The notes below the pieces were generated by a model. It worked only from the letters and a program-made list of their open reading frames with translations. It did no database searches and had not been told where the DNA came from. A DNA stretch of 64,000 nt from Phycisphaerae bacterium (GTDB taxonomy: Bacteria; Planctomycetota; Phycisphaerae; UBA1845; Fen-1342). The DNA lies in the NCBI GenBank assembly GCA_030428945.1, contig JAUIEC010000006.1, positions 62,001-126,000 on the forward strand. Direction: 5' to 3'. Numbering within the stretch: position 1 is the stretch's first letter; each line of letters begins with the position of its first letter. Positions 18,867 to 62,798 of the stretch are shown piece by piece. Made by a program: the position numbers and the translations under genes.

Positions 18867-18941
18867 GTGAACGAATGAACCCGTGGAAGCGTGAACGCGT
18901 GAGCGCCCGGTCGCATGGCCCCGTCATCCGTTCGCGCTTCC
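18867..18941 (+). repeat. Octamer-phased array with hairpin arm
   Basis: Five contiguous 8-nt units: GTGAACGA, ATGAACCC, GTGGAAGC, GTGAACGC, GTGAGCGC (18867-18906), beginning 8 nt after the epimerase stop. GGAAGCGTGAACG (18885-18897) pairs with CGTTCGCGCTTCC (18929-18941) through 12 Watson-Crick pairs and one G-U. Likely 3'-end structure of the upstream mRNA; not a classical terminator (no T-run). Confidence 0.8.
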
Positions 18942-30354: not shown

Positions 30355-30374
30355 GCAGGTCAGCAAGGCAGCGC
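30335..30374 (+). repeat. Octamer-phased array across the rmlA stop codon
   Basis: Five 8-nt units: GTGAGCAG, GTGACCAA, GTAAGCAG, GTCAGCAA, GGCAGCGC. The TAA stop of rmlA (30352-30354) is part of the third unit. No complementary right arm is evident downstream, so this copy is a half-element. Confidence 0.75.
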
Positions 30375-43795: not shown

Positions 43796-46168
43796 CTACG
43801 GATCGTTCGGGTCGACGGCGACGCAGGCGACGAGCGAGCAGTCGCCGGTCCCGTCATAGGTGCCGCCCGAGCCGATGCAGTCGCCCTCGGACAGTTCCGC
43901 GCAGGTGCCGTCAGTGAAGCAGCAGCCGCTGGTCGGCGGTTCGCAGAACGCGGTCCCGCAGTCGCTGCCGGGCCCCTGCGGCGTACCGCCCTGGCTGATG
44001 CAGTCGTTCGGGTCCAGGTCACTGCACGAGCCGTCCGAGAAACAGCAGGCCTCCGGCGGTGGCGCGCACGCCACCGTGGTGCAGTCGCCGCCCGGCCCCT
44101 GCGGCGTGCCGCCCGCGCTGAGGCATTCGTTGATCCCCATCTCCGCACAGGATCCGTCCGGGAAGCAGCACGGTTCGAGCATGTTCGGGTCCGGCGGGCA
44201 GGCGATCGAACCACAGTCGCTGCCCAGCCCCTGCGGCGAGCCGCCCTGGAAGATGCAGTCGTTGGCGGTCATGTCCGCGCAACTGCCATCCGGGAAACAG
44301 CAGGCCTCGAGGCCCAGGTTCGGGTCGCACGGGTCGTTCGGCTCGTTGGGATCCACGACATTCGGATCGTTCGGGTCGACGTTCGGGTCATTCGGATCCA
44401 CGTTGGGGTCGTTCGGCTCGTTCGGCTCGCAGGGGCTGGGATTGTTCGGATCGCAGCAGACCTCGCGGACGCAGTCGTCCGTGCACGTCGCGGACGCCGC
44501 CGCCAGCGCTTCGGCGTAACTCAGCGAGACCGCGGACGCCGCCGCCGAACTCTCGAATGCCGCCGAGGCCGACCAGCTCGCCGAGAACGAGGCGCTCGCC
44601 GCCCAGGATGCGTAGTACGAAGCCGATGACGACCAGGCGAAGTTCGCCGACGCCGAGGCCGAGGCCGCCGCGAACGCCTCCGCGACGGCCGCGAACGACG
44701 CACTGGCCGAGAAGCTGAAACTCGCGGCCGCCGACGCGCTGAAGGTCGCCTGGGCGACCGCGGCCGCCACCGCTTCGCCATCACCCGCACAGGCCGCCAC
44801 GAACGCCGCCGCGGCCGCGCTGGCCGCCGCTGTCGCTTCCGCCTCCGCCGACGCGGATGCCGTCGCCAGGGCTGCAACCGCCGCGGATGCCGAGGCTGCC
44901 GCCGCCGCGCAGGCCGAGGCCTCCGCGCTGGCGAAGGCGCTCGCGCTGGCACACGCCGATGCGGCCGCGCTGGCCGATGCGCTCGCTTCCGCGGCCGCGC
45001 TGGCCGACGCGCTGGCCGATGCCGAAGCCGCCGCACAGGCCGCTGCACTCGCCGCGGCTGACGCCTCGCTGTAGGCACAGGCACTCGCGCACTGGCAGAC
45101 CGCGCACGCGAAGGCGTAGGCGCTGGCCCAGGCCGACGAACCGGCGCAGGCCGAAGCCGCCGCCGTCGCGTAGGCCTGCGCCTCGGCCCAGGCACTCGCC
45201 GCCGCGGACGCGTGTGCTTCGGCGTTCGCACACGCGCTGGCGATCGCGAACGCGAACGCCTCGGCATCGGCACACGCCACCGCGATGGCGGCCGCCTGGG
45301 CCTGCGCCGTGGCGAACGCGAAGGCGACCGCATCCGCGGAAGCGCGAGCCGATGCGGCCGCACTGGCCGCGGCCGAGGCACCGGCGATGTAGCTGCCGAG
45401 CTTGTAGTCTTCGACTTCACCGAAGGCGAACATGCCGCTGCCGTCCCATCCGGTGCTGTCGATCGCGATGGCGTCGCTGACCCGTTCGCGCGTGACGGTG
45501 ACCCGCATCCAGGCCGACGGCAGGTTCAGCGGCATCAGGAATGAAGGCGTCGTGACGGTTGTCGTGGTTCCGGGCGTCAGGGCCGGCATCTCGAAATCGA
45601 CCACGACCCATTCCGGCAGGTTCGGGTCGGCGTTCCGCCAGCGACCGTCGCGGTTCAGGTCGATCAGCACGTTGAGGTAGCGACTGCCGGGCGGGGCATT
45701 GGCACCCAGCGTGACGTCCACCTGCAGCGTGACGCCGGCCGGGTCCGCGAGCACACCCTGGATCACCGGGCACGGCGCGCCGACCAGTCCGTCGTCGAAG
45801 GCGTCATCGTTGATCAGGTTCTCGCGCAGGTCCGGGTCGGCAAAGTCCCGCGCACCGCGCTCGCGGCTGACGTCCGCGCCCAGGTGGTCGTTGCCGGTCC
45901 GCTCCATGTGGATCCCGGGCAGGCCGTAGCGACTGTTGGTCGTCGCGAAGCGGGTCGGGAAGCGGCCGATGACACCTTCGTCGGGCGAGTCGTACCCGGC
46001 CGGAACCCCGTCGGGCGCGTCGCCGTAGTCTCCCAGCGGAACGGCGTTGGGCAGCGGGATCTTCCCGTTGACCTTCGGCTGGGCCAGCCCGGGCAGCGGC
46101 AACAGCAGGCACGTGACAACCGCGCACAGGGACGTGCGCACGACGCGGGTATCCAGGCAGCGTAGCAC
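43796..46168 (-). CDS. Secreted GEVED protein with silk-like Ala/Ser block and CCFxDGxC repeats
   Basis: About 790 residues. A signal peptide (LCAVVTCLLLPLPGLAQ) precedes a planctomycete GEVED domain (about 35-255, ending FAFGEVEDYKLG). Then come ~280 residues composed almost wholly of Ala and Ser in an alternating pattern (ASASASAS, SASAAAEASASA) with scattered Phe, Glu and Cys. A Pro-Asn-Asp linker (EPNDPNVDPNDPNV) follows. Four ~45-residue repeats close it, built on CCFxDGxC..C..GGxxxGxGxDC. I prefer the GTG at 46168 because GGAGAGG lies 9 nt upstream and a normal signal peptide follows; GTG 46237 would add 23 basic residues. Structural or surface role inferred. Confidence 0.85.
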   Translation of the reverse strand: MLRCLDTRVVRTSLCAVVTCLLLPLPGLAQPKVNGKIPLPNAVPLGDYGDAPDGVPAGYDSPDEGVIGRFPTRFATTNSRYGLPGIHMERTGNDHLGADVSRERGARDFADPDLRENLINDDAFDDGLVGAPCPVIQGVLADPAGVTLQVDVTLGANAPPGSRYLNVLIDLNRDGRWRNADPNLPEWVVVDFEMPALTPGTTTTVTTPSFLMPLNLPSAWMRVTVTRERVSDAIAIDSTGWDGSGMFAFGEVEDYKLGSYIAGASAAASAAASARASADAVAFAFATAQAQAAAIAVACADAEAFAFAIASACANAEAHASAAASAWAEAQAYATAAASACAGSSAWASAYAFACAVCQCASACAYSEASAAASAAACAAASASASASASAAAEASASASAAASACASASAFASAEASACAAAAASASAAVAALATASASAEAEATAAASAAAAAFVAACAGDGEAVAAAVAQATFSASAAASFSFSASASFAAVAEAFAAASASASANFAWSSSASYYASWAASASFSASWSASAAFESSAAASAVSLSYAEALAAASATCTDDCVREVCCDPNNPSPCEPNEPNDPNVDPNDPNVDPNDPNVVDPNEPNDPCDPNLGLEACCFPDGSCADMTANDCIFQGGSPQGLGSDCGSIACPPDPNMLEPCCFPDGSCAEMGINECLSAGGTPQGPGGDCTTVACAPPPEACCFSDGSCSDLDPNDCISQGGTPQGPGSDCGTAFCEPPTSGCCFTDGTCAELSEGDCIGSGGTYDGTGDCSLVACVAVDPNDP

Positions 46169-47519: not shown

Positions 47520-48452
47520 ATGCTGGTATCCATTGAGTTTGAAGCTCGGCTTGCGGCGTTGATCGAGGAGCAGGGCGGCCGGGAGATGAGGCAGAAAATC
47601 ATCGCCGAACTGGCGATTTCTCCGTCGACGTTGTCGCAGTACCTGCGCGGCTCGGCCCGCCCGAGCTTCGAGCGACTGGTGGCGCTGGCATCGGTGCTGG
47701 AGGTCTCGCTTGATGACCTTGTATTCGGCCGCCCGCTGCCGACCGTTCAGCCGCCCGAACTGGCCCCCTGGGAGCAGGCGATCGACAAGCGCCTGTTGCG
47801 GGTCGAACGGGCCACCGAGCGCTACGCGGCCCTGGTTCGTCGGGTCGGGCACACCCTGGGCGAGATGATCGGCGACGCGGTCCGCTCGGCCACCCAGATC
47901 GGGGCGGTTCCGGGGCTGATCCTGGACGAGGAGACGCTGGTGCTGGAACGGTTCAGCCGCCACACGCGGACGCTGGGTATGCGGACTGATTACCTGCTCG
48001 ACGTCTCCGAGGAGGAGGGCGGCGTCTCGACGCCGGGGCGGTTCCTGGCCACCCTGGCCGGCAACCTGACGGCCGGGCGGCGGTACAGTTTCGTTTTCGT
48101 GCGGCGGACGGGGGTGGACTGGGCCCGGATCGCCGGCCAGTTGCGTGAGACGCTGCGGACGGCCTGCGGGCTGAGCCGCAGCGTGCTGGCCCGATGCCAG
48201 TTGCAGGAGACCGCGCTGCCGACCGGTTCAGGGGTGCTGCTGTACGAACTGGACGTGGCCGAACTGCGGCGGACCGAGCCGTTTCTGTACGATCTGGTCA
48301 GCGAGCGGATCTCGGCCGACGGCTGGGTCGGCGCGGTTCAGCCCCCCGTCAGTGGCTTCGGGGCCGACATCCTGATGGACAGCGACCACCTCGACCACGC
48401 CCGGCGGATCTTCGCCGACGTCACCCGCAGCCGCCGCACCCGGGGGTTGTGA
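47520..48452 (+). CDS. Helix-turn-helix regulator with unassigned C-terminal domain
   Basis: A 310-residue protein. The first ~65 residues form a Cro/C1-type HTH (IIAELAISPSTLSQYLRGSARPSFERLVALASVLEVSLDDL). The remaining ~245 residues match no domain I recognise; they are mixed alpha/beta with segments such as RRYSFVFVRRTGVDWARI, possibly a ligand-sensing module. Divergent from marC. Upstream DNA holds paired AATCACA sites. GAAGGTG gives a ribosome-binding site. Its own 3' flank has a heptamer tandem repeat. Confidence 0.75.
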   Translation: MLVSIEFEARLAALIEEQGGREMRQKIIAELAISPSTLSQYLRGSARPSFERLVALASVLEVSLDDLVFGRPLPTVQPPELAPWEQAIDKRLLRVERATERYAALVRRVGHTLGEMIGDAVRSATQIGAVPGLILDEETLVLERFSRHTRTLGMRTDYLLDVSEEEGGVSTPGRFLATLAGNLTAGRRYSFVFVRRTGVDWARIAGQLRETLRTACGLSRSVLARCQLQETALPTGSGVLLYELDVAELRRTEPFLYDLVSERISADGWVGAVQPPVSGFGADILMDSDHLDHARRIFADVTRSRRTRGL

Positions 48453-48457
48453 TGGGA

Positions 48458-48488
48458 GGGAACAGGGAACAGGGAACAGGGAACAGGG
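48458..48488 (+). repeat. GGGAACA heptamer tandem repeat
   Basis: Four exact 7-nt units GGGAACA (48458-48485) followed by GGG, starting 6 nt after the stop of the HTH regulator. Resembles the octamer arrays in base composition and position but has a 7-nt period and no complementary arm. Confidence 0.8.
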
Positions 48489-48538
48489 TGTCCCGCCAGG
48501 ACTATGCCGCGCTTCCTGCAATGCCGAAAGGAGACCTG

Positions 48539-48841
48539 ATGCCCGGGTTTGATCTGCCCGACGCGTGTCCAACGTGCGGCAAGCCGATGAAGGTCGGCTT
48601 TCTGCTGGCTGGTGAAGAGGGGGAGGCGGGCCTGTACTGGAGTGCCGTGGATCCCCGAACCGAGATTGCTCGACCGACGCCGATTCGGGAGAAGCCAAGG
48701 GTTCGTTCGTTTCGCTTTTCGGCCGCGGAACCCGACGGCATCGAGGCGCATCGCTGCGAGGAGTGCCAAACGGTGGTCTTCAGATCGTCTCGTCAGCAAC
48801 GCACGGAGGGGGGGCCGGGAGCTAGGAAGACCGGGGGGTGA
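48539..48841 (+). CDS. DUF6487-like cysteine-rich small protein
   Basis: A 100-residue protein with CPTCGKPMKVGFLLAG at 9-24, an internal LYWSAVDP, and CEEC (about 77-80). This CPxCGxxMxxGxL..LxW..CxxC layout fits the small DUF6487 family of presumed metal-binding proteins. AAAGGAG sits 5 nt before the ATG at 48539, deciding the start. Function unknown. Confidence 0.75.
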   Translation: MPGFDLPDACPTCGKPMKVGFLLAGEEGEAGLYWSAVDPRTEIARPTPIREKPRVRSFRFSAAEPDGIEAHRCEECQTVVFRSSRQQRTEGGPGARKTGG

Positions 48842-48871
48842 CCATCTCGGGGGATGTCGCCGCTCGGCCCC

Positions 48872-48903
48872 CTTGCGTACTTGCTTACCTGCTCACTTGC
48901 TCA
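48872..48903. repeat. Octamer-phased array, pyrimidine arm only
   Basis: Four 8-nt units CTTGCGTA, CTTGCTTA, CCTGCTCA, CTTGCTCA. Their reverse complements (TGAGCAAG and variants) match the purine arms elsewhere. It lies 13 nt before the ATPase gene with no matching left arm, so it is either a half-element or reversed. Confidence 0.75.
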
Positions 48904-48916
48904 CTATGGTCTGGCT

Positions 48917-51322
48917 ATGGATGCCTACGAAAAGCTCAATCAGTTCTATCTCGGCAAGGTCTACGATCCCGCGGCGGCTGCGCCGACCGATGACCTGCTG
49001 CTGTACAGCGCCCGTGACCTGACCACGCACGGGGTCTGCGTCGGCATGACCGGCAGCGGCAAGACCGGTCTGTGCGTCTCGCTGCTCGAGGAGGCCGCGA
49101 TCGACGGCATTCCGGTGATTGCGATCGATCCGAAGGGCGACCTCGGCAACCTGGCGCTGAACTTCCCGAAGCTGCGCGGCGAGGATTTCGCGCCATGGGT
49201 CGATCCGGCCGAGGCCAGTCGCAAGGGCATGACGGTCGAGGACTACGCCACCGACCGGGCCGAACTGTGGCGCAAGGGCCTCGCGTCGTGGGACCAGCGG
49301 CCGGACCGGATCCAGCGGCTGCGCGACGCGGCCGACGTGGCGATCTACACGCCCGGCAGCGCGACCGGCCTGCAGCTCAAGGTCCTTCGCAGCCTGGCCG
49401 CCCCGCCGCCGGAGGTGCTGGCCGATGCGGATGCATTGCGCGAACGCACGCAGGCGTACGTTTCGGCACTGCTCGCGCTGCTCGGCGTGGACGCCGACCC
49501 GGTCAAGAGTCGCGAGCACATCCTGCTGAGCAACCTGATCGACCGCGCCTGGCGCGACGGGCGCGACCTGGACCTGGCCCGCCTGATCCAGGAGATTCAG
49601 CAGCCGCCGTTCGATCGTCTCGGCGTGTTCGAACTCGACTCGTTCTACCCCGCCAAGGATCGCTTCGAGCTGGCGCTCGCGCTGAACAACCTGCTGGCGT
49701 CGCCGACCTTCGCGGCCTGGATCGAGGGCGAACCGCTCGACATCCAGCGGCTGATGTTCACACCGGACGGCAGGAACCGGATCTCGATCCTGTCGATCGC
49801 CCACCTGTCCGATGCCGAGCGGATGTTCTTCGTCACCCTGCTGCTGAACGAGGTGGTCGCGTGGATGCGGCAGCAGCCCGGGACCGGCAGCCTGCGGGCG
49901 ATCCTCTACATGGACGAGGTCTTCGGCTACCTGCCGCCGACCGCGAACCCGCCGTCGAAGCTCCCGCTGCTGACGATGCTGAAGCAGGCCCGCGCGTTCG
50001 GGCTGGGCGTCCTGCTGGCCACGCAGAACCCGGTTGACCTGGATTACAAGGCCCTGTCGAATGCCGGCACGTGGTTCATCGGCCGGCTGCAGACCGAGCG
50101 CGACCGGGCCCGCCTGCTTGACGGCCTGCAGAGCACCGACTCGCAGTTCGATCGCAGGGAACTGGTCGACCTGATCAAGGCCCTCGACAGCCGCGTGTTC
50201 CTGATGAACAACGTGCACGACGGCGGCCCGGTGCTGATGCACACCCGCTGGGCCCTGTCATACCTGCGCGGCCCGCTGACCCGCACCCAGATCCAGGACC
50301 TGATGGCCCCGCGCGTCGCGCAGCAGCAGCAGGCGATCGCCGCCGCCCGGCCGAAACCGAAGAGAGCGGCCAGGAAGCGCGCGCCGCGCCCGGTGCTGCC
50401 GCCGGAGATCGAACAGGCGTTCGTGCCGGTCGGACTCAGCGGCCCCGACGGCGCCGAACTGACCTATCAGCCGGCCCTGGTGGCCACGGCGCAACTGCAT
50501 TACACGCGAACCTCGGCCGGGATCGACGAGTATCGTGGCGAGGGTCTCTACGCTCCGCTCAGCAAGCGAACCATCGACGACCCGTGGGATGCCGGCATCG
50601 CGTTCTCACCGGCGTCGCTCGACCTGGACGACCAGGCGGACGAGCAGGGATCGTTCGCGGCGCTCCCGGCCGAGGCGGCCAGCGCCCGGCAGTTCAAGCG
50701 CTGGCAGAAGGACCTGGTCGACCACCTGTACCGGACGCGCGACGGGCTGGTGCTGCGGTGCAAGGCGCTGAAGGCCTACAGCAGGCTGAACGAGAGCGAG
50801 GCCGACTTCCGGGCGAGCCTGCGGCACAAGCTGCACGAGGAGCGGGACCTGGACCTGGAGAAGCTCCGCAAGCGCTTCGAGCCGAAGGTCGCGCGGCTCG
50901 AGGAGCGGATTCGCAAGGCCGAGCAGCGGGTCGAGAAGGAACGGTCACAGGTCAAGCAGGCCGGATTCCAGACGGTGCTGTCGATGGGCTCGAGCCTGCT
51001 CGGGGCCCTGTTCGGCGGCCGGCGGACGAAGATGAGCACGGCCGCACGCCAGGCCGGCCGGACGATGCAGCAGCGTGGCGACGTGACGCGTGCGAAGGAA
51101 ACGGTCGAGGCGCTGCGGGAGGAACTGGCCGAGATGGAGGCCGACCTGCAGGAGCGGCTCGACGAGATCACCGACGCGGCCACGGTCGATCAGCTTGAAC
51201 TGGAAGAGTTGCGCATCCGTCCGAAGAAGTCGACGCTCGAGGTCGAGAAGTTCACGCTCGCGTGGCTGCCGCACTGGGTCGACACGGACGGGATGGCCGC
51301 GCCGGCGTTCGAACTGGAGTGA
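48917..51322 (+). CDS. HerA/DUF87-type ATPase with C-terminal coiled coil
   Basis: An 801-residue ATPase. Walker A is GMTGSGKT (43-50) and IAIDPKGDLGNL follows. Walker B is ILYMDEVFGYLPP, and FLMNNVHDGGPVLMHTR is typical of HerA/VirB4-like translocases of the DUF87 type. Residues ~620-740 form a long charged coiled coil (LEKLRKRFEPKVARLEERIRKAEQRVEKE). Members act on DNA or polypeptide strands as hexamers; target unknown. The ATG at 48917 is chosen because the longer frame reads through the octamer array. No nuclease or defence partner is adjacent. Confidence 0.85.
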   Translation: MDAYEKLNQFYLGKVYDPAAAAPTDDLLLYSARDLTTHGVCVGMTGSGKTGLCVSLLEEAAIDGIPVIAIDPKGDLGNLALNFPKLRGEDFAPWVDPAEASRKGMTVEDYATDRAELWRKGLASWDQRPDRIQRLRDAADVAIYTPGSATGLQLKVLRSLAAPPPEVLADADALRERTQAYVSALLALLGVDADPVKSREHILLSNLIDRAWRDGRDLDLARLIQEIQQPPFDRLGVFELDSFYPAKDRFELALALNNLLASPTFAAWIEGEPLDIQRLMFTPDGRNRISILSIAHLSDAERMFFVTLLLNEVVAWMRQQPGTGSLRAILYMDEVFGYLPPTANPPSKLPLLTMLKQARAFGLGVLLATQNPVDLDYKALSNAGTWFIGRLQTERDRARLLDGLQSTDSQFDRRELVDLIKALDSRVFLMNNVHDGGPVLMHTRWALSYLRGPLTRTQIQDLMAPRVAQQQQAIAAARPKPKRAARKRAPRPVLPPEIEQAFVPVGLSGPDGAELTYQPALVATAQLHYTRTSAGIDEYRGEGLYAPLSKRTIDDPWDAGIAFSPASLDLDDQADEQGSFAALPAEAASARQFKRWQKDLVDHLYRTRDGLVLRCKALKAYSRLNESEADFRASLRHKLHEERDLDLEKLRKRFEPKVARLEERIRKAEQRVEKERSQVKQAGFQTVLSMGSSLLGALFGGRRTKMSTAARQAGRTMQQRGDVTRAKETVEALREELAEMEADLQERLDEITDAATVDQLELEELRIRPKKSTLEVEKFTLAWLPHWVDTDGMAAPAFELE

Positions 51323-51372
51323 CGGGGCCGGTTCCCGCGGAGGTGGAGGCTGGCCGGGACGGTCGGCCGCCC

Positions 51373-52692
51373 TCAGCCCGGCGTGTCTTCGGCGTGCGCC
51401 TGCAACAGGGCCGCGAATCGCCAGACGTCGTGAAACGAGTTGTACAACGGCACCGGCGCCACGCGCACGACGTTCGGCGGGCGGAAGTCACTGATCACGC
51501 CCGCCCCCTGCAGCCGTTCCTGCAACGACCGCGGCCGATCACCGTGCACCAGCAACGAGACCTGGCAGCCCCGCGCACGCTCGGTCCGGGGGGTGATCAC
51601 CTCGTACCCGCGGGCCCCGCCCCCCTCGACCGCCATGCGATCCAGCAGGTCGAGCAGGTACCCCGTCAACCGCAACGACTTGGCCCGCAGCGCCGCCATC
51701 CCGGCCTCGTCGAAGATCGCCAGTGAGGCCCGCAACGCGGCCAGCGCCAGCACCGGCGGATTCGACAACTGCCAGGCATCGGCCGACGCCACCGGCGCGA
51801 ACGTTTCGTTCAGGTGCATCCGGAAGCGCGTCTCCGGATCGTTGCCCCACCATCCGGCGAACCGCGGAAGACCCGCATCGGCCACGTGCCGGGCATGCAC
51901 GAACGTGCCGGCCACGCAACCGGGCCCGCCGTTCAGGTACTTGTAGCTGCACCAGCAGGCGAAATCGACATCCCAGTCGTGCAGCGACAACGGCAGATTC
52001 CCGGCCGCGTGCGCGAGGTCGAATCCGACCACGCATCCCGCCCGCCGGGCGGCCGTCGCGATCCGCTCCAGGTCAAACGCCTGCCCGGTGTAGTAGTTGA
52101 CCCCCGCGAACAGCACCAGGGCGATCTCGTCGCCCCGTTCGGCCAGCATCCGCTCGATGTCCTCGGTCCGCAGCAGGTGCTCTCCTTCCCGCGGGCGGAC
52201 ACGCAGCAACCCCTCATGCGGGTTGTAGCCGTGCCAGCGCAACTGGCTCTGCACCGCGTACGTGTCGGACGGAAACGACGTGTCCTCCATCAGGATCTTG
52301 AACCGCGACGCGGTCGGCCGATAGAAGCTGACCATCATCAGGTGCAGGTTGGCGGTCAGCGTGTTCATCACGACCACCTCTTCCGGACGGGCCCCGACCA
52401 GACGACAACACGAGTCGCGGAACAACTCGTGATAGGGATACCAGGGGTGCGGGCCCTCGAAGTGGCCGTCGACCGCGTGCCGGGCCCAGGTGTCCAGTTC
52501 CTCGCCGACCGCGTCGCGGACCGCGTGCGGCATCAGCCCGAGCGAATTCCCGGCCAGGTAGATCACGTCCCGGCCATCATGCTGGGGGAAGGCGAACCGC
52601 CGGCGAAAGGCGGCCAGCGGATCGGCGGCATCCAGCCGCAGGGCGAACGCTTCGGTCGGCTCGAAAGTAGATGGATCGTAGGTGCTGCTCAC
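51373..52692 (-). CDS. kynU: Kynureninase
   Basis: PLP enzyme cleaving kynurenine or 3-hydroxykynurenine to anthranilate or 3-hydroxyanthranilate plus alanine. The 439-residue protein has NSLGLMP, the PLP Asp in VGFDLAHAAGNLPL, and the Schiff-base Lys in CWCSYKYLNGGPG. GTG 52692 is chosen because the sequence VSSTYDPSTFEP follows and a good promoter ends just before it; upstream codons lie in repeat-like DNA. Divergent from the other genes of the pathway cluster. Confidence 0.93.
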   Translation of the reverse strand: MSSTYDPSTFEPTEAFALRLDAADPLAAFRRRFAFPQHDGRDVIYLAGNSLGLMPHAVRDAVGEELDTWARHAVDGHFEGPHPWYPYHELFRDSCCRLVGARPEEVVVMNTLTANLHLMMVSFYRPTASRFKILMEDTSFPSDTYAVQSQLRWHGYNPHEGLLRVRPREGEHLLRTEDIERMLAERGDEIALVLFAGVNYYTGQAFDLERIATAARRAGCVVGFDLAHAAGNLPLSLHDWDVDFACWCSYKYLNGGPGCVAGTFVHARHVADAGLPRFAGWWGNDPETRFRMHLNETFAPVASADAWQLSNPPVLALAALRASLAIFDEAGMAALRAKSLRLTGYLLDLLDRMAVEGGGARGYEVITPRTERARGCQVSLLVHGDRPRSLQERLQGAGVISDFRPPNVVRVAPVPLYNSFHDVWRFAALLQAHAEDTPG

Positions 52693-52698
52693 GCGGCT

Positions 52699-52727
52699 AT
52701 CATAGCTGGTGAGGGTGCAGGGGTCAG
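52699..52727 (-). promoter_or_regulatory. Promoter of kynU giving a leaderless mRNA
   Basis: On the minus strand CTGACC (52727-52722), 17 nt, TATGAT (52704-52699), then 6 nt and the GTG start. Start of transcription would fall on or beside the G of GTG. No Shine-Dalgarno is present. Confidence 0.55.
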
Positions 52728-52759
52728 GCTCGCGGGTCACGGATCAGGGGGGCAGGGCG

Positions 52760-53461
52760 TTGCCGGAACCGGAAGACGTAGATTTCTCGGTATTGACGTT
52801 CGACGCGTGGCTGAAGTTCTTCTTCGCCCTCTCGCCGACCCGGGCGTTCACGTGGTCGGTCTTCGACATCTCCGACGCGCGCCGGCACCTGGAGCATTAC
52901 ATTCGCTTCTGCGAGGAGTCGCGGGCGATCCTGTGGCTGTACAAGGCCGACGCCGCGCGGATCGAGTCGGTCACCTGGACCCTGACCCAGGGGACCGCCA
53001 ACGTGCTGTGGTCCGACCGGCTGACCGAGGACATCTGGCCGCCGGAAGCCCGGCCGACCCACCGGCTGCGCCTGCAGGCGATCGAGGCGATGGCGATCCC
53101 GTACGAAGACGTTTACCGCTACATCGCCGAGAACTTCGTCGGGTCGGCCTTCTTCATGTGGTGGGAGGCGGTGATCGGCGGCTTTCGGAAGGCCTACGGC
53201 CGGCCGGCCGTCAAGGGCGACTACACCCCGGACACGCCGCAAGAGGTGGCCGAGCGTGATGCGATCTTCGCGACGCTGCAGCGGATCTTGGCGATCGAGA
53301 ACCTGGACTGCCAACTGGCGGCCTGTCACGGGCTGAACCACCTGTCCCACCCGCACCGGGCGACGACGGTCGAGGCGTTCATCCGGCGTTTCTCGGCCGA
53401 CGGCGGCGATCCGGACACGCTCCGCTGGCTGTACAGTTGCCGGGACGGGGCGGCGATGTAG
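52760..53461 (+). CDS. Unrecognised protein in the kynurenine cluster
   Basis: Not recognised. About 233 residues, predicted mainly alpha-helical and rich in Trp/Phe (DAWLKFFFAL, FFMWWEAVIGGF). It ends in a HEAT-like CQLAACHGLNHLSHPHRATTVEAFI. It is not tryptophan 2,3-dioxygenase (lacks that family's heme His region) nor a formamidase or hydroxylase I can identify. The proposed TTG start follows AGGGGGGCAGG; a longer version from GTG 52709 would include octamer-like DNA. It sits between kynU and the 3-hydroxyanthranilate dioxygenase gene, so a pathway role is inferred from place only. Confidence 0.65.
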   Translation: MPEPEDVDFSVLTFDAWLKFFFALSPTRAFTWSVFDISDARRHLEHYIRFCEESRAILWLYKADAARIESVTWTLTQGTANVLWSDRLTEDIWPPEARPTHRLRLQAIEAMAIPYEDVYRYIAENFVGSAFFMWWEAVIGGFRKAYGRPAVKGDYTPDTPQEVAERDAIFATLQRILAIENLDCQLAACHGLNHLSHPHRATTVEAFIRRFSADGGDPDTLRWLYSCRDGAAM

Positions 53462-53472
53462 CTTTGCTGCGA

Positions 53473-53528
53473 GGGAGCAAGGGAGCAAGGGAGCAAGGGA
53501 GCAAGGGAGCGAGGGAGCGAGGGAGCGA
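53473..53528 (+). repeat. Perfect octamer tandem array
   Basis: Seven uninterrupted 8-nt units: four GGGAGCAA then three GGGAGCGA. It starts 11 nt after the stop of the unrecognised gene. GGTTTTTTGG and two CACGTTTT units (53557-53572) follow. The near identity of units suggests recent expansion. The T-run may aid termination. Confidence 0.85.
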
Positions 53529-53620
53529 GGAGGTGTGCGGGGTTTTTTGGCGGCATCACGTTTTCACGTTTTCGCGGTGTCGAGGGTACACTGCCGGGGG
53601 CACGAAATTGGAGACACATC

Positions 53621-54181
53621 ATGCAGACGCCGACGACGACGAAAGTGCTGCCGCCGATCAACCTGATGAAGTGGGTCGAGGAGAATCGCGACCAGTTGAA
53701 ACCGCCGGTGGGGAACAAGTACCTGTACTGCGGCGAGGATTTCTTCGTGATGGTGATCGGGGGGCCGAATGCCCGCAACGATTTCCACATCACGGCCTCG
53801 GAGGAGTACTTCTACCAGGTCAAGGGCGACATGGTCGTGCGGATTCGCGAGGACAACGACATCAAGGACTATGTCGTGCACGAAGGCGAGACGTTCTTCA
53901 TTCCGCCGAACGTGCCGCATTCGCCCTGCCGCCCGGCCGGGACGATCGGGGTGGTGGTCGAGCGCAACCGCCCGCCCGGCGAGATGGAACACATGGTGTT
54001 CTACTGCGAGAACTGCAAGGAACTGGTCCACGACGTCGAGTTCGACTGCAAGGACATCGTCGAGCACTTCCGCGAGGCGATGGAGTCCTTCTGGGCCGAC
54101 GAAGAGAAATCGACCTGCAGGAACTGCGGCACACGCGTCCCGAAGGCGGGGCCTTATCAGATGCCCGAGCATCTCAAGTAA
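53621..54181 (+). CDS. nbaC: 3-hydroxyanthranilate 3,4-dioxygenase
   Basis: Fe(II) cupin that opens the ring of 3-hydroxyanthranilate. The 186-residue bacterial-type enzyme has metal ligands His56 and Glu62 (NDFHITASEEYFYQ) and His100 (PPNVPHSPCRP). It also has the C-terminal rubredoxin-like site C129, C132, C166, C169 of the bacterial enzymes. GGAGA precedes the ATG. It is followed by ACMSD, the next step; the TAA stop is part of an octamer hairpin. Confidence 0.95.
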   Translation: MQTPTTTKVLPPINLMKWVEENRDQLKPPVGNKYLYCGEDFFVMVIGGPNARNDFHITASEEYFYQVKGDMVVRIREDNDIKDYVVHEGETFFIPPNVPHSPCRPAGTIGVVVERNRPPGEMEHMVFYCENCKELVHDVEFDCKDIVEHFREAMESFWADEEKSTCRNCGTRVPKAGPYQMPEHLK

Positions 54182-54262
54182 GCAAGTGAGCACGTAAGCA
54201 AGTGAGCAAGGCAGAGTTGCCGGGGCACCACTTGGTCACTTGCTGACTTGCTTACTTGCTTA
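54178..54262 (+). repeat. Octamer-phased 32-bp hairpin at the nbaC stop codon
   Basis: Left arm (54179-54210): TAAGCAAG, TGAGCACG, TAAGCAAG, TGAGCAAG. Right arm (54231-54262): CTTGGTCA, CTTGCTGA, CTTGCTTA, CTTGCTTA. The arms are complementary at 28 of 32 positions around a 20-nt loop. The first triplet of the left arm is the TAA stop of nbaC. Best example of the element in the window. Confidence 0.9.
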
Positions 54263-54296
54263 CTGATGTGACCACGCCGTTGCGCCGGGGTTCGCC

Positions 54297-55370
54297 GTGA
54301 TAGACCTGCATACGCACATCATGCCTCCCGATTGGCCGGACTGGTGTGAGAAGTTTGGTTACGAGGGGTTCATTCGGCTGGAGGCCTGTGAGGGCTGTCG
54401 GGCGCGGATGATGATCGGGGATCGGCTCTTTCGCGAAGTGGGGGAGGTCTGTTGGGCGCCTGGGCCGCGGATTGCCGACTGTGACGTGGCCGGGGTTTCG
54501 CAGCAGGTGCTCAGTCCGATTCCGGTTCTGTTCTGTTACTGGGCCCGGGGCGCGGATGCGCTCGAGTTCGCCCGTCTGCAGAACGATCACATCGCCGGCG
54601 TGATCCGCGATTACCCGGGCCGGTTCTACGGGCTGGGGACGGTGCCGCTGCAGGATCCGCAACGGGCGATCGGCGAGCTCGAGCGGTGCGTGCTGCCGGC
54701 CGAGCGGGGTGGCCTGGGCTTGTCGGGGGTCGAGATCGGCACGCACGTCGAGGCGAACCGGTTCGACGGGCGGGACCACGACTGGAACCTGAACGCGCCG
54801 GAACTGTTCGAGTTCTTTCAGGCGGCCGAGCGGCTGGGGGCGGCCGTATTCGTGCATCCGTGGGACATGATGGGTGCCGACCAGATGCGGCGCTACTGGC
54901 TGCCGTGGCTGGTGGGGATGCCGGCCGAGACGTCGCGGGCGATCTGTTCGATGATCTTCGGTGGCGTGCACGAGCGGTTGCCGGACCTGCGGGTGTGCTA
55001 CGCGCACGGCGGCGGTAGTTTTCCGTTCACGCTGGGTCGGATCGAGCACGGGTTCCACTGTCGGCAGGACCTGGTGGCGCTGGACAACGCGATCAATCCG
55101 CGGGCGTACGTCGCGCGGGAGGACGATGGTGTGGTGACGCCGGCGCGGTTCTGGGTGGACTCGCTGACGCATGACGCGGATGCGCTGCGGTACCTGCTGA
55201 AGATCTTCAGCGACGAGCGGATCTGCCTGGGGACCGACTACCCGTTTCCGCTGGGTGAGCAGCAGCCGGGCAGCCTGATCCGGTCGATGGACTTCCCGGA
55301 CGAGGTGGCCCGGCGCCTGCTGGTCGAGAACGCCGAGGCGTTTCTCGGACTGCGTCAAGTGAAGGAGTGA
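54297..55370 (+). CDS. nbaD: 2-amino-3-carboxymuconate-6-semialdehyde decarboxylase
   Basis: Zinc amidohydrolase-fold decarboxylase acting on the dioxygenase product. The 357-residue protein has the metal motif DLHTHIMP (His5, His7), EIGTHVEANRFD, VHPWDMMG (metal His), YAHGGGSFPFTLGR and GTDYPFPLGE (metal Asp), all typical of ACMSD. GTG start. It diverts the pathway to catabolism and away from quinolinate/NAD. Its last codons and stop are within another octamer hairpin. Confidence 0.92.
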   Translation: MIDLHTHIMPPDWPDWCEKFGYEGFIRLEACEGCRARMMIGDRLFREVGEVCWAPGPRIADCDVAGVSQQVLSPIPVLFCYWARGADALEFARLQNDHIAGVIRDYPGRFYGLGTVPLQDPQRAIGELERCVLPAERGGLGLSGVEIGTHVEANRFDGRDHDWNLNAPELFEFFQAAERLGAAVFVHPWDMMGADQMRRYWLPWLVGMPAETSRAICSMIFGGVHERLPDLRVCYAHGGGSFPFTLGRIEHGFHCRQDLVALDNAINPRAYVAREDDGVVTPARFWVDSLTHDADALRYLLKIFSDERICLGTDYPFPLGEQQPGSLIRSMDFPDEVARRLLVENAEAFLGLRQVKE

Positions 55371-55441
55371 ACACGTGAAAGAGTGAAAGCGGGTGGCGCG
55401 GGGCCAGCCTCTTTCACTCCATCACATGTTCACGTTTTCAC
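55359..55441 (+). repeat. Octamer-phased inverted repeat across the nbaD stop
   Basis: Left arm (55359-55390): GTGAAGGA, GTGAACAC, GTGAAAGA, GTGAAAGC. Loop of 19 nt. Right arm (55410-55441): TCTTTCAC, TCCATCAC, ATGTTCAC, GTTTTCAC. The TGA stop of nbaD (55368-55370) is in the second unit. The element fills the gap between convergent genes and may serve both. Confidence 0.85.
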
Positions 55442-55448
55442 CACGCGT

Positions 55449-56330
55449 TCAGCGTCGCCGGCCGAGCAGGCCGAGGCTGACGAGCAGCAGGCTGAGCGAG
55501 GTCGGTTCGGGGACGACGGTGAAGTTGTCGAACAGGGCCCACTGGTGGTCGGGCTGATCGCTGACCGAGCTGAACGGATCCTCGTAGCCCAGCAGGGCGA
55601 ACCCGTCCGTGGAAGCGCTTGCCTCGCTGAAGAACAGGACGTCATTGAAGAGGACGTTGACGATGCCGCCGGCGACTTCGATGTCCACGCGGACCCACTG
55701 CAGGGCCGGCGCGGCGTGCGGACCGCCGAGCAGGTTGTCGAAGGCCGCGTCGAACGGCGCGCCTTCGCCGGTCTGGGTGTCGCCCAGGTCGGCCAGTTCG
55801 ACGTCGCCCTCGTTGATCGCGGCGTCTTCCGTTCCGTAGCCGTTCTCGTTGGCCAGCCAGCCCCAGGTGCCGGCAGCGCCGCCGCCGCGGTTGTTGCGGG
55901 CCTCGATCGGGTCAGCGCTGTCGGTGCCGACGCCCCAGAGCAGTTGCTCGGTCGAGCCGGCCGGGAACGGATCGGTGCTCAGGTTCATGTAGGCATCGAA
56001 CGAGACCGTGTAGTCGCCGGTGAAGTTGATCGGCGTGGCACCGGCCACGATGTTCAGCCCCGCCGCCACGCCAGCCGAGAAGTTGGCCTGGGCCAGCACG
56101 CCGCGGGTCGCGGCGCCGCCGGGGATCGGCCGGGGGGCTTCGGGAATGCTGAAGGCCGTGCCGAAGACGCTGAAGTTGCTGTAGTCGACGAAGGTGGCGA
56201 GCGTATCGGACTGTGCGTTGATGGTCACATCGGCCGCGGCGCTGTCGAACGGTTCGGCGAAGACGGTGCCGGCGTTGGCCGCGCTGGTCAGCAGTGCGCC
56301 GCCGAGCAGGATGCCCAGGAAGTTCTTCAT
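55449..56330 (-). CDS. PEP-CTERM sorted secreted protein
   Basis: A 293-residue exported protein: signal peptide MKNFLGILLGGALLTSAANA, a beta-rich jelly-roll-like body (DVTINAQSDTLATFVDYSNF, WVRVDIEVAGGIVNVLFNDV), and a C-terminal PEP-CTERM tag. The tag reads VPEPTSLSLLLVSLGLLGRRR in two parts: VPEP, a hydrophobic helix, then RRR. Such tags are cut by an exosortase (not in this window) and the proteins often belong to exopolysaccharide matrices. Start ATG 56330 gives the signal peptide. Body function unknown. Confidence 0.85.
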   Translation of the reverse strand: MKNFLGILLGGALLTSAANAGTVFAEPFDSAAADVTINAQSDTLATFVDYSNFSVFGTAFSIPEAPRPIPGGAATRGVLAQANFSAGVAAGLNIVAGATPINFTGDYTVSFDAYMNLSTDPFPAGSTEQLLWGVGTDSADPIEARNNRGGGAAGTWGWLANENGYGTEDAAINEGDVELADLGDTQTGEGAPFDAAFDNLLGGPHAAPALQWVRVDIEVAGGIVNVLFNDVLFFSEASASTDGFALLGYEDPFSSVSDQPDHQWALFDNFTVVPEPTSLSLLLVSLGLLGRRR

Positions 56331-56582
56331 TCTGATTGCTCCGTATCCCTCTGATTTGTTGGCGCGGGATTCACCCGTTCGGCGAAGACATGATCCGCTG
56401 GGGATGCTAGGGGGCCGCCGACGCGGTTTTCCACACAGAGTGTCCAAGTCGTTTCCACGGCTGAAGTAACGTCGCGTGTCGGGTTCGGGTTCTTCAGGGC
56501 TTCGCCATGTTCATGCGGCCCCAGGGTCGGGCCTGCCTGGTGCCCACACCTCTGGTCCTGTCATGGGGGCGGCTCGGCGGCG
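56331..56582. other. Gap between hflX and the PEP-CTERM gene
   Basis: 252 nt with no gene. It contains the promoter of the PEP-CTERM gene (not pinpointed) and one TTTTCCACA (56428-56436), which matches the DnaA-box consensus. A single box carries little weight. Confidence 0.35.
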
Positions 56583-57917
56583 TCAGGCGACGTCGATGTG
56601 CTGGATGTCGCGGGCGAGGGTGTGGAGGTGTTCGAGTGCGCGGGGGGGGATGCGGACGTCGACGATGACGCGGGTATCGACGTATTCCTGGCTGAGGACG
56701 TCGGCGTAGCGTTCGAGGAAGTTGAGGGCCTTGCCGCTGGCGATCGGGATGCTGAGTCGCAGGCGCTGCATGTGGCCCTGCATGATCGCGTCGACTTCCT
56801 CGGTCAGGTGGTCGATGTTGGTGCCGCGGGCGGCCGAGATTTCGAGTGCGTCGAGGTGCTGTTTGCGGAGGACGGTCAGGACAGACTGGTCCTCGACGGC
56901 GTCGATCTTGTTGAGCAGCAGGATGGTCTGTTTGCCGTCCGCGCCGAGTTCGGTCAGGACGGTATCGACGGCGTTGATCTGTTCGAGTGCGTCGGGGCTG
57001 GACGCGTCGACGACGTGCAGCAGCAGGTCGGCGTGGATGGCTTCTTCGAGGGTGGCTTTGAAGCTGGCGACCAGGTGGTGCGGCAGGTCGCGGATGAAGC
57101 CGACGGTGTCGCTGAGCAGGACGGCCCGGCCGTGGCCGAGTTCCCACTTGCGGGTCAGGGTGTCGAGGGTCATGAACAGGCGGTCGGCGGCCTTGGCCTT
57201 GGCGCCGGTCAGGGTGTTCATCAGGGTGCTTTTGCCGGCGTTGGTGTAGCCGACGAGCGAGACCTGGAAGAACTCCTTGCGGGCGAGGACTTCGCGGGTG
57301 CGGCGGCGGTCGATGGCGGCGAGTTTTTCCTTGAGCATGGCGATGCGTTTGCCGACCAGGCGGCGGTCGATTTCGATCTGGCGTTCGCCGGGTCCGCGGG
57401 TGCCGATGCCGCCGACGGCGCCGGCCCCTCCACCGCCGCCGGCTCCGGCGATGCGTTCGAGGTGGGTCCACATGCCGCGCAGACGCGGGGCGGTGTATTC
57501 GAGCTGGGCGAGTTCGACCTGCAGCCGGGCCTCGGCCGTGCGGGCCCGCGAGGCGAAGATATCGAGGATCAGTTCGCTGCGGTCGATCACCTTGCGCTGG
57601 ACCGCTTTCTCGATTTCGCGGATCTGGGTCGGGCTCAGGTCGTTGTCGAAGATGACGACGTTGGCGTCGTGCACGTCGGACCGCTGGCGGATCTCTTCGA
57701 GCTTGCCTTTGCCGACGCAGGTGGCCGGGTCATAGGAGCGGCGGCGTTGCAGGACGGAGTCGACGACGTCGGCGCCGGCCGACTCGGTCAGTTCGCTCAG
57801 TTCGGCCAGCGGATCGCCGATGGGATCACCGCCCAGCAGCACGCCGACGAGCAGAGCCCGCTCGCGGACGACGGAGAAGTCGTCGCGGGACTGATCTGCG
57901 AAGGATGGCTTGGCCAT
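56583..57917 (-). CDS. hflX: Ribosome-associated GTPase HflX
   Basis: GTPase that splits stalled or inactive ribosomes under stress. The 444-residue protein has the HflX N-terminal domain (VVIFDNDLSPTQIREIEKAV, a Gly-rich linker GGGGGAGAVGGIGTRGPGE) and G domain motifs G1 GYTNAGKST, G3 DTVGFIRDLPHHLVASF and G4 NKID. The start is placed at the ATG before AKPSFADQ. No ribosome-binding site is obvious. Stands alone on the minus strand. Confidence 0.95.
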   Translation of the reverse strand: MAKPSFADQSRDDFSVVRERALLVGVLLGGDPIGDPLAELSELTESAGADVVDSVLQRRRSYDPATCVGKGKLEEIRQRSDVHDANVVIFDNDLSPTQIREIEKAVQRKVIDRSELILDIFASRARTAEARLQVELAQLEYTAPRLRGMWTHLERIAGAGGGGGAGAVGGIGTRGPGERQIEIDRRLVGKRIAMLKEKLAAIDRRRTREVLARKEFFQVSLVGYTNAGKSTLMNTLTGAKAKAADRLFMTLDTLTRKWELGHGRAVLLSDTVGFIRDLPHHLVASFKATLEEAIHADLLLHVVDASSPDALEQINAVDTVLTELGADGKQTILLLNKIDAVEDQSVLTVLRKQHLDALEISAARGTNIDHLTEEVDAIMQGHMQRLRLSIPIASGKALNFLERYADVLSQEYVDTRVIVDVRIPPRALEHLHTLARDIQHIDVA

Positions 57918-58011
57918 TCGGGTTCCCAACAAGCGCGTGCGCGGGCCGGCCGACGCTGTCGCCGGCTGCCTGCATTATACGGTCCGGGCGGGCCGGGTTT
58001 TCGGTTTGGGG

Positions 58012-58431
58012 TCAGTTTTCGGCGGTTGGCCGGCCGCACTCGGGGCAGCGTGGCAGTTCCTGTCCGCGGAGGTCGTAGCCGCAGGCGAGGCAGATCGGTA
58101 CGCCGAGGGTCACGAGTCGCCGGCGGAGGAAGCGCAGGTAGCGGCGGCGGACGATCCAGGTGGCACCGAGCCAGATGCACGCGCCGAGGATCGGTCCGGC
58201 GGCGATGACGAGGATCATCCGGCCGGCCGGGGTGGTCGGCATGGGGATCCAGAGGCGGAGGGTCAGAGCAAGCAGGAACGCGGTCGCCGCGACGGCGGCG
58301 GTGTAGGCGGCGAGGGCGAGCCAGAAGCCAGGCATGCGGTAGAGTTGCCGGTTCCAGTCCGCGAGGGCCTGCTGCGCATCGGCGTTGGTGGGGAAGCGCC
58401 GGGTTTCGGGATCGTGGGGGTCAAGTTCCAC
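58012..58431 (-). CDS. Membrane protein with C-terminal zinc ribbon
   Basis: A 139-residue protein with two membrane helices (about 35-58, 68-92), a basic segment RRRYLRFLRRR, and a C-terminal double zinc knuckle: CLACGYDLRG..CPECG (about 115-134). The CxxCxYDLRG-CPECG signature repeats that of the 14.8-kb protein, but here at the C-terminus. Planctomycete-type protein of unknown role. Downstream of the M42 peptidase gene on the same strand. Confidence 0.75.
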   Translation of the reverse strand: MELDPHDPETRRFPTNADAQQALADWNRQLYRMPGFWLALAAYTAAVAATAFLLALTLRLWIPMPTTPAGRMILVIAAGPILGACIWLGATWIVRRRYLRFLRRRLVTLGVPICLACGYDLRGQELPRCPECGRPTAEN

Positions 58432-58452
58432 GTCGTGGTCTCAAATGGTCAG

Positions 58453-58494
58453 GGAGCAAAGGGCGCGACGGAGCGAGCCCTTGTCACTTGCTCC
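58453..58494 (-). repeat. Octamer-type hairpin after the M42 peptidase gene
   Basis: On the minus strand GGAGCAA begins 8 nt after the peptidase stop. TTGCTCC (58488-58494) pairs with GGAGCAA (58453-58459), and GCCCTT (58477-58482) with AAGGGC (58459-58464, sharing A58459), leaving a 5-nt bulge. Phase is weaker than in other copies. Orientation relative to the upstream gene follows the same rule. Confidence 0.55.
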
Positions 58495-58502
58495 GCTGGT
58501 CC

Positions 58503-59615
58503 TCAGAAGTACTTTTCCCAGGTGGCGAAGCGTTTTTCGAGGTCTGCCTTCATGGCGGGGTCGTTCTTGAGGTAGCCCGGGTCGTGGACGACGAGGGCTT
58601 CGAACCAGTCGACCATCAGTTTCCAGTCGGTCAGGCTGATCGTTTCGGGTGCGATGCGGTGGCGGTCGACGTCCATGTTGTGGTAGTTGCCGAGTGCCAG
58701 GCACATGCCGGTGGCTTCGTAGCCGTAGGCGCAGAACGCGGTCGATTCGCAGGTGCCGCCGGCCATCAGCTTGCGCTGATAGCGGAAGGTCTTGCGTCGG
58801 CGGGCGAGGGTGGCGGCGACGCGGCCGCAGTGGTCGGTGAGCGCGGGGGTGAAGACGCTGGCCTTGTCGCCGACGCGGAGGACCGGGCCGTCGCCGATGG
58901 TGGCGTTACCGCCGCGGGCGCTGCTGGTTTCGATGGCGACGATGGGGATCTTCTTCGGCAGGGTGCGGGCCTTGCAGGCGCCGATGGCGCCGATGAAGCC
59001 GACTTCTTCGGCGCGGGTGAACAGGCAGTAGACCTCGGCGCGGGTCTTCTTGCGGGCGAGTCGTTCGAGGAGCGCGAGGGCGGCCGCGGCGCCGGCGATG
59101 TCATCGCAGCCGCGGGCGTGGACGATGTCGCCGCGGAGGCGGGGTTCGGTCAGGTCCCACATGCCGGGGCTGTTGGGCTGGATGGGTTGGGAGACCCGGA
59201 GCAGGACTTCCTCGGGCAGGCGCATGTTTCCGATCAGGCGGTAGACGGACTTGGTCTTGGTGACTTCCTGCACGCGGGCCCGGATCCACTTCCCGTCGGA
59301 GTGAAAGCGGACGCGCTGGTTGTCGAAGTAGTCGGCGTAGACGCCACCGCGAAAGGCGGCCCGGACGGTGCGGCGGTCGACCATCTCGAGGGCGACGAAG
59401 CCGGGGTGGTCGGTGTGTGCGCTGAAGGCAAGCGGCCGGCGGTTCTTCGGCGGTCGTGACCGATAATGCGCGAGCAGGTTTCCGTAGCGATCGGCTTTGC
59501 AGGTGACGCCGGGCAGTTGCCGGCAGCGGTCGCGGATGTAGTCGAGGACGGCGTGTTCGACGAAGGCGGCGGTCGGGAGGGCGAGCATGTCGCGCAGGAC
59601 CCTGGGAAGCGGCAT
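58503..59615 (-). CDS. M42-family metallopeptidase
   Basis: A 370-residue di-metal aminopeptidase of the M42/glutamyl-aminopeptidase type. Metal and catalytic residues: His67 and Asp69 (SAHTDHPGF), bridging Asp in ARGCDDIAG, the Glu-Glu pair in RAEEVGFIGA, IVAIETS, and the last His in LGNYHNMD. The start with GGAGA upstream (59615) is chosen over a longer Pro/Arg-rich frame. Cytosolic peptide turnover is the likely role. Confidence 0.88.
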   Translation of the reverse strand: MPLPRVLRDMLALPTAAFVEHAVLDYIRDRCRQLPGVTCKADRYGNLLAHYRSRPPKNRRPLAFSAHTDHPGFVALEMVDRRTVRAAFRGGVYADYFDNQRVRFHSDGKWIRARVQEVTKTKSVYRLIGNMRLPEEVLLRVSQPIQPNSPGMWDLTEPRLRGDIVHARGCDDIAGAAAALALLERLARKKTRAEVYCLFTRAEEVGFIGAIGACKARTLPKKIPIVAIETSSARGGNATIGDGPVLRVGDKASVFTPALTDHCGRVAATLARRRKTFRYQRKLMAGGTCESTAFCAYGYEATGMCLALGNYHNMDVDRHRIAPETISLTDWKLMVDWFEALVVHDPGYLKNDPAMKADLEKRFATWEKYF

Positions 59616-59782
59616 GTGGATGTCTCCGGGGGTATCGGTTGATGCGAGTGTAGGGAAAAGGGGGCGTGGGAGCGAGAGAGCGGGCAAGGCCGGGTTACCG
59701 GCGGGACGCCCGGGCGACGCCGGCCCGGCGCGGCCCGAAAATCCTGGACGCAAGCTGCTTCGGGCGTGGCGTTTACGGGCGG

Positions 59783-59858
59783 TTCAGGTGTTTACCCGCT
59801 ACCGCTGTTCGGATCTGGCGCCGAAAATGAACATGGGTGGGGGGGTACCCCGGGGACG
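59783..59858 (-). repeat. Dispersed 80-nt repeat, copy 4 (inverted)
   Basis: Reverse orientation to the other copies: TTCAGGTGTTTACCCGCTACCG, split here as TTCAGGTGTTT and ACCCGCTACCG. A variable centre, GCCGAAAATGAACATGGGTG and GGGGGGTACCCCGGGGACG follow. It shares the extra flanking block TTACGGGCG with copy 3, with which it brackets the ECF sigma operon. Confidence 0.85.
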
Positions 59859-59900
59859 AGCGGGGCCGCAAGCGTCTTCGTGGGGGCGTTCGCGGGTCCG

Positions 59901-60040
59901 CATTTCGCCTTCGCCTTCGCCTTCGCACCTCGCATTCGCATTGGCATTCGTACCTCGCCTTCGCCTTCGCACCTCGCATTGGCATTGGCATTGGCCTTCG
60001 CACTCGCACCTCGCATTGGCATTCGCAATGGCATAGGCGT
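59901..60040. repeat. Hexamer-based low-complexity repeat
   Basis: About 140 nt made of interchangeable 6-7-nt words: CATTCG, CATTGG, CCTTCG, CACTCG and the spacer CACCTCG. Higher-order order is irregular, as in a decaying or shuffling minisatellite. It lies between repeat copy 4 and the sigma-factor promoter. All six frames are open through most of it because of its composition, but it is not credible coding DNA. Confidence 0.75.
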
Positions 60041-62669: not shown

Positions 62670-62798
62670 GGTCCGCCTTGTGCGAGACGCGCAGGGTGCG
62701 TCATCGACGCCGCGTTCCACGGATTCGCGTGGCAGCGCCGGCGTGGGTGCCGCACCCTGACTTCATCACACCCGAACTGAATTCCAACCTGCCGCCGT

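Follow-up and report, generated by a model that had tools for sequence, protein, structure and literature searches.

Octamer and heptamer arrays at gene 3' ends of a Phycisphaerae bacterium resemble the ends of S23/IVP-type inserted elements

In the genome of this Phycisphaerae bacterium, hairpins and single arrays built from tandem 7- or 8-nt units are located directly 3' of the stop codons of many genes, with the purine-rich strand first in the sense of the preceding gene. The same two-array architecture recurs at stop codons across many phyla, and it also surrounds the small gene that encodes the S23/IVP protein. Thus, the hairpins look like non-coding cousins of a small selfish element, and it is probable that both they and the single arrays belong, as non-coding members, to a widespread family of inserted elements of the IVP/IVS type. 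The ends of such an element would be facing tandem arrays of one 7- or 8-nt unit, purine-rich strand first, instead of fixed terminal inverted repeats. Its full-length member would carry one gene between the arrays, coding for the S23/IVP protein, as encoded in 23S rRNA intervening sequences (IVSs).

The best copy in the window (the whole 64-kb stretch of DNA that was analysed) is found at the end of nbaC, where the following features can be distinguished:

54178-54209, + strand: left arm of four purine-rich octamers, holding the nbaC TAA stop codon (54179-54181)
54232-54263, + strand: right arm of inverted octamers
53621-54181, + strand: nbaC, 3-hydroxyanthranilate dioxygenase (PF06052, 1.6e-53), whose stop codon is contained in the array
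54297-55370, + strand: ACMSD-like amidohydrolase (PF04909), the downstream neighbour of nbaC, probably in one operon with it

As claimed in a preliminary description of this DNA, 28 of the 32 positions pair (29 with G-U pairs), and the RNA fold reaches -54.1 kcal/mol (z = -6.0), a value equalled by none of 200 shuffles. This copy has no ORF of its own. The nbaC stop codon is separated from the next gene by 115 nt here, and by 12 and 33 nt in two relatives; arrays are absent from the orthologous junction in the relatives with a readable nbaC 3' end.

Further copies in the window are the following:

55359-55441, + strand: GTGAANNN hairpin (arms 55359-55397 and 55403-55441; z = -9.1), overlapping the amidohydrolase stop codon
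31422-31500, + strand: GTGAAAGA hairpin (z = -4.3), providing the stop codon of gene 30425-31441
18867-18908, + strand: degenerate GTGAACGN array forming a weak hairpin (z = -1.7), 8 nt past the stop of gene 17818-18858
58440-58512, - strand: loose, weak hairpin (z = -1.4) at the 3' end of the M42-like peptidase gene 58503-59753
30335-30374, + strand: GTRAGCAR array without partner arm (z = +0.3), overlapping the stop of gene 29581-30354
53472-53530, + strand: AGGGAGCR array of 7.4 units, 3' of the stop of gene 52793-53461
48453-48490, + strand: GGGAACA array with a 7-nt period, located at the stop of gene 47520-48452 and marking the left edge of an island
48871-48906, - strand: 8-nt array, pyrimidine-rich on the + strand, just 5' of gene 48917-51322, right border of the island

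The copies first reported at 54178, 55359 and 31422 are true hairpins, and those at 18867 and 58453 are weak ones. By contrast, those at 30335 and 53473 turned out to be single arrays; for the latter, z is -0.7 and there is no convincing partner, with a short inverted TCACGTTT pair downstream at 53556. That first list lacked the arrays at 48453-48490 and 48871-48906, and the single unit GTGARCAA proposed for all copies does not fit them all, as the unit at 53473 is GGGAGCRA and four unit families exist in the genome. The window contains 8 arrays of 7 or 8 nt; Markov-1 simulations with the same threshold averaged 0.35 and never exceeded 2. No Rfam family matched above its gathering score in window positions 48000-60000.

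The island at 48453-48906, enclosed by the GGGAACA array and the inverse 8-nt array, carries an ORF matching DUF6487 (8.5e-9). Long tandem repeats (43907-44429 and 59899-60034; periods of 123, 42 and 44 nt) are also present in the window and are unrelated to the octamers. One window ORF ends in a PEP-CTERM-type tail, which together with the gene content points to a planctomycete, probably one of the Phycisphaerae.

The genome-wide scan called for in the preliminary description was run on 861 kb of the 5.5-Mb draft genome (two contig stretches plus the window, with 797 kb lying outside the window), using fixed thresholds for array detection and a gene map from a home-made, codon-trained finder based on codon-position GC. 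A total of 204 intergenic arrays were found, 165 with period 8 and 39 with period 7, and each of the other periods from 5 to 13 gave between 0 and 3. The 8-nt phase originally described therefore holds, and period 7 is enriched as well. Nearly all arrays are covered by the four unit families, GGGAGCRA, GTRAGCAA, GTGAAAGA and the 7-mer GGGAACA. A purine-sense array begins at a stop codon in 116 array/gene combinations, mostly at -5 to +10 nt, and in some cases the array itself provides the stop codon. Among the arms situated at -25 to +10 nt of a stop, 96 point away from the gene and 2 have the opposite orientation; when arms were placed at random across the same intergenic regions, the average was 22 and the highest count 33. 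Both the placement at gene 3' ends and the rule that the purine arm comes first in the sense of the upstream gene are thus borne out, and the suggestion that these sequences are a dispersed element gains support.

The partner arm is missing in about half of the arrays, and convergent genes often have arrays at both stops. A single two-ended element per intergenic region was rejected as the sole model, since the arms at convergent stops frequently belong to different families. Within array-bordered regions, another dispersed hairpin, GGGTGCGTCATCGACGC...GGCGTCGATGCCGCACC, recurs (C10:156490-156760 and C10:494510-494815 of this genome, and window 62692-62759); a further recurring intergenic repeat is of the type GGATGGGGCACCC / GGTGCCCCATCC (C5:52870-53295, same genome).

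At 39 of 60 loci, the gene of the S23/IVP four-helix bundle (PF05635/TIGR02436) stands between complementary 7/8-nt arrays that share one period; the other 21 have no detectable array pair. In controls, the same test, which is symmetric and so unaffected by the strand of the locus, detected paired arrays at 0/144 small genes of this genome, 4/3000 random windows, 1/110 shifted windows and 1/1150 windows in hairpin loci. Over 89 IVP loci, the paired arrays have a period of 7 nt in 31 cases, 8 nt in 15 and 9 nt in one, and none have a period of 5, 6, 10 or 11 nt. At least one 7/8-nt array lies near the IVP gene at 78 of these 89 loci; of 161 windows taken at a distance from the gene in these loci, 37 contain one. 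Strict GTGA arrays are almost absent near IVP genes, and the link is seen only once any 7/8-nt unit is allowed.

Of 25 hairpin-bearing genomes from other phyla, 24 contain TIGR02436, and the figures are 72 of 369 for sampled gammaproteobacteria and 0 of 14 for control genomes; the contrast between hairpin genomes and gammaproteobacteria is only indicative, because these groups are unmatched for phylum. The genome studied here has two IVP genes (PF05635, 1e-29 and 5.5e-35), one of them intergenic and the other inside dnaE, and the solved structure closest to its IVP is XCC0516 of Xanthomonas (organism from PMC4990558). Full-length members share with IVSs an IVP ORF between complementary ends; location in 23S rRNA, another defining trait of IVSs, was not found, the window copies being at the ends of protein genes. 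The profile for bAvd, of diversity-generating retroelements, gave 27.4 bits, below its cut-off of 40, and the single reverse transcriptase (RT) lies elsewhere in the genome. At one locus (L168), the frame stays open across the whole 3.3 kb around an array-flanked IVP element, and the protein looks like a restriction-modification enzyme.

An insertion is seen in dnaE, which in this genome contains, in frame, an array-IVP-array unit of ~510 nt:

L209:2801-6682 (C10:262801-266682), own genome: dnaE with IVP element; also in L170, L171, L174, L178, L179, L184 and L188

The alignment of the DnaE protein with Taq Pol III alpha breaks off after residue 599 and resumes at residue 770; Taq has 5 residues in this interval, and the ~170 extra residues correspond exactly to the array-IVP-array unit. 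The IVP gene inside dnaE is read in a frame different from that of dnaE itself. One and the same dnaE site is occupied by such a unit in eight genera, and the array unit differs per genus but is the same in both arms. Several of the IVP-bearing dnaE genes have further array-coded stretches at other linkers, without IVP. In the IVP tree, seven dnaE-borne IVPs and two others form a branch of nine (98/90), which is compatible with one origin of the dnaE-borne IVPs. Evidence of insertion also comes from a gammaproteobacterium (L379:851-1500, G591:C14), where the interval between accB and accC (names assigned by reading the sequence) holds an IVP gene with a frameshift, surrounded by GGGAATC arrays. 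This unit lies ~5 nt past the accB stop and a few nt short of the start of accC. We identified no target-site duplication.

The search for hairpins in other phyla used a pattern of three GTGA units per arm, and the loci were picked by pattern or best score, not randomly. The matches listed include Chloroflexota, Planctomycetota, Acidobacteria, Bacteroidota, Betaproteobacteria, Nitrospirae and others, and 93 of 121 hairpins among them adjoin the stop codon of an ORF of 120 or more codons, most often at a distance of 0-5 nt, compared with 4.9% of random positions. Limnoglobus roseus, Hymenobacter and Larkinella are cultured hosts among these matches. Pairing in register at variable positions reaches 0.72, versus 0.693 +- 0.007 for shuffled unit order, a small but consistent difference. 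Outside the hairpins, the flanks near the arm have complementarities of 0.58, 0.46 and 0.50, against 0.41, 0.28 and 0.28 in shuffled pairs; insertion into a pre-existing terminator stem may be the source of this, but partial repeat units can explain it.

In two related species whose flanks are 93-99% identical, the hairpins are common to both at all three readable loci, where no presence/absence (empty-site) difference was found, and this implies that movement is at most slow. The changes between them are small indels, one of exactly 8 nt (a clean loss) and others of 12, 14 and 25 nt.

The main rival explanation reverses the order of events: hairpins would have arisen first, by tandem duplication and template switching after stops, and IVP genes would have entered their loops later, the arrays being the target. 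Such a sequence of events would agree with the many arrays that have neither an IVP gene nor a partner arm, with the IVP-free stretches at other linkers in the dnaE genes of relatives, and with the variation of the array unit between genera at the common dnaE site. Furthermore, published IVSs are found in place of the tetraloops in rRNA helices (PMC4990558). It gives no account, however, of why the arrays have a stop-codon position and strand polarity, and the presence of IVP genes in nearly all hairpin genomes of other phyla is above what independent origin would lead one to expect. Taking both sides into account, this order of events is considered unlikely, although it is the strongest competitor.

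A less probable, rather unlikely proposal is that the arrays are functional mRNA 3'-end elements, selected to end transcription or to block 3' exonucleases. Position, polarity and maintained pairing are in line with it, as is the presence of arrays in 53% of convergent, 27% of tandem and 13% of divergent intergenic regions, and the Xanthomonas repeats discussed below are mostly transcribed (PMC4692102). Nevertheless, a run of at least four T within 15 nt 3' of the stem was found at only 2 of 64 hairpin flanks, which indicates that the arrays are not U-tract terminators. The terminator reading put forward initially is not supported, also because the nbaC copy lies between genes only 12-33 nt apart in relatives and within a probable operon. 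Stemless single arrays are common, and such a function accounts neither for the bracketing of IVP genes nor for the insertion in dnaE. A role in mRNA 3'-end stability is possible. As for ordinary simple-sequence repeats, slippage products surviving mainly in the narrow neutral space 3' of stops would explain the small length changes between related species, including the clean 8-nt loss, but they predict neither periods 7 and 8 alone with only a few purine-rich families, nor a fixed polarity, nor facing arrays on both sides of one particular gene family across many phyla; this origin is already contradicted by polarity and period and is very improbable.

An inserted element of the IVP/IVS type is the reading that we favour. 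Several observations count against it: the genome has only 2 IVP genes, versus 204 intergenic arrays in the 861 kb; the frequent lack of a partner arm and the differing families at convergent stops are unexplained by a single two-ended insertion; a target-site duplication was not identified; the two related species share the hairpins; and 21 of the 60 IVP loci have no detectable array pair. We propose that copies would enter harmless sites, that is, positions directly 3' of a stop codon, rRNA loops and protein linkers. In the RNA, the arms would form a long stem, so that the reading frame of the host ends or continues unharmed. 23S IVSs are excised by RNase III (PMC4990558) and, by analogy, the stem in mRNA would probably be a substrate of this enzyme. 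Arrays would gain and lose units while retaining in-register pairing. Movement would probably be mediated by the IVP protein acting in trans together with host enzymes, this being the least certain step. One reverse transcriptase was found in the genome, along with one marginal match to Y1_Tnp (RAYT), with an E value of 2.5e-4 and 23.2 bits against a cut-off of 23. We know of no mobilising enzyme for these array elements.

The preliminary description stated that these sequences fit no named repeat class, and this is mostly right, although a close precedent has been published. The GGGNATC heptamers of Xanthomonas and Nostoc (Rehm et al. 2015; PMC4692102) are tandem, dispersed and intergenic repeats that lie on the coding strand 0-50 bp from stop codons, also overlapping stops, with about 70 facing pairs per Xanthomonas genome (PMC4692102). 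They were published as G-quadruplex repeats with a single 7-nt unit and without any link to mobile elements (PMC4692102). The arrays described here are likewise purine-rich on the sense strand and located within 50 bp of a stop codon, and the Xanthomonas unit GGGAATC (PMC4692102) is the one found around the IVP gene between accB and accC. In contrast, they are mostly of 8 nt and otherwise of 7 nt, and some cannot form quadruplexes; a 7-nt quadruplex unit does not describe them, because most are octameric and GTGAAAGA and GTRAGCAA have no G-tracts.

A second precedent is provided by the 23S rRNA IVSs of Coxiella and Leptospira, which have one small IVP ORF, complementary ends and a long stem, and have been called a selfish element of unclear origin (PMC4990558). 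Full-length array elements resemble them in having an IVP gene between complementary ends. Unlike these IVSs, which occupy rRNA helices and have plain inverted repeats, the present elements end in tandem arrays, are situated at the 3' ends of genes or within dnaE and, for the most part, do not carry the IVP gene.

Extragenic palindromes of the REP/REPIN type, served by a RAYT transposase, are non-autonomous, reach high copy numbers and are often found in 3' regions. They differ from the elements described here, which have no fixed REP sequence and whose stems consist of octamer or heptamer arrays with variable units. The short tandemly repeated repetitive (STRR) heptamers of cyanobacteria, to which our sources refer in passing, are also dispersed 7-nt tandem arrays.

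Tentatively, and with somewhat less confidence than we would need to prefer it, these observations could be brought together in one selfish superfamily that crosses phyla and has ends of tandem 7/8-mer arrays, uniting the 23S rRNA IVSs, the Xanthomonas GGGAATC repeats and the octamer hairpins. Its members would insert at stops in a strand-polar manner, and the sequence of their ends would be exchanged jointly in the two arms, leaving the architecture intact. The priority of the array-IVP link is not certain, the open literature alone having been covered.

For more than 25 years it has been an open question where the 23S rRNA IVSs come from and what the S23/IVP protein does (PMC4990558), and the heptamers published at stop codons of Xanthomonas were without explanation. 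The shared architecture ties both to a repeat class of many phyla. It is unusual in itself for an inserted element to be placed so exactly, and with such strand polarity, at stop codons when no conserved target sequence is obvious.
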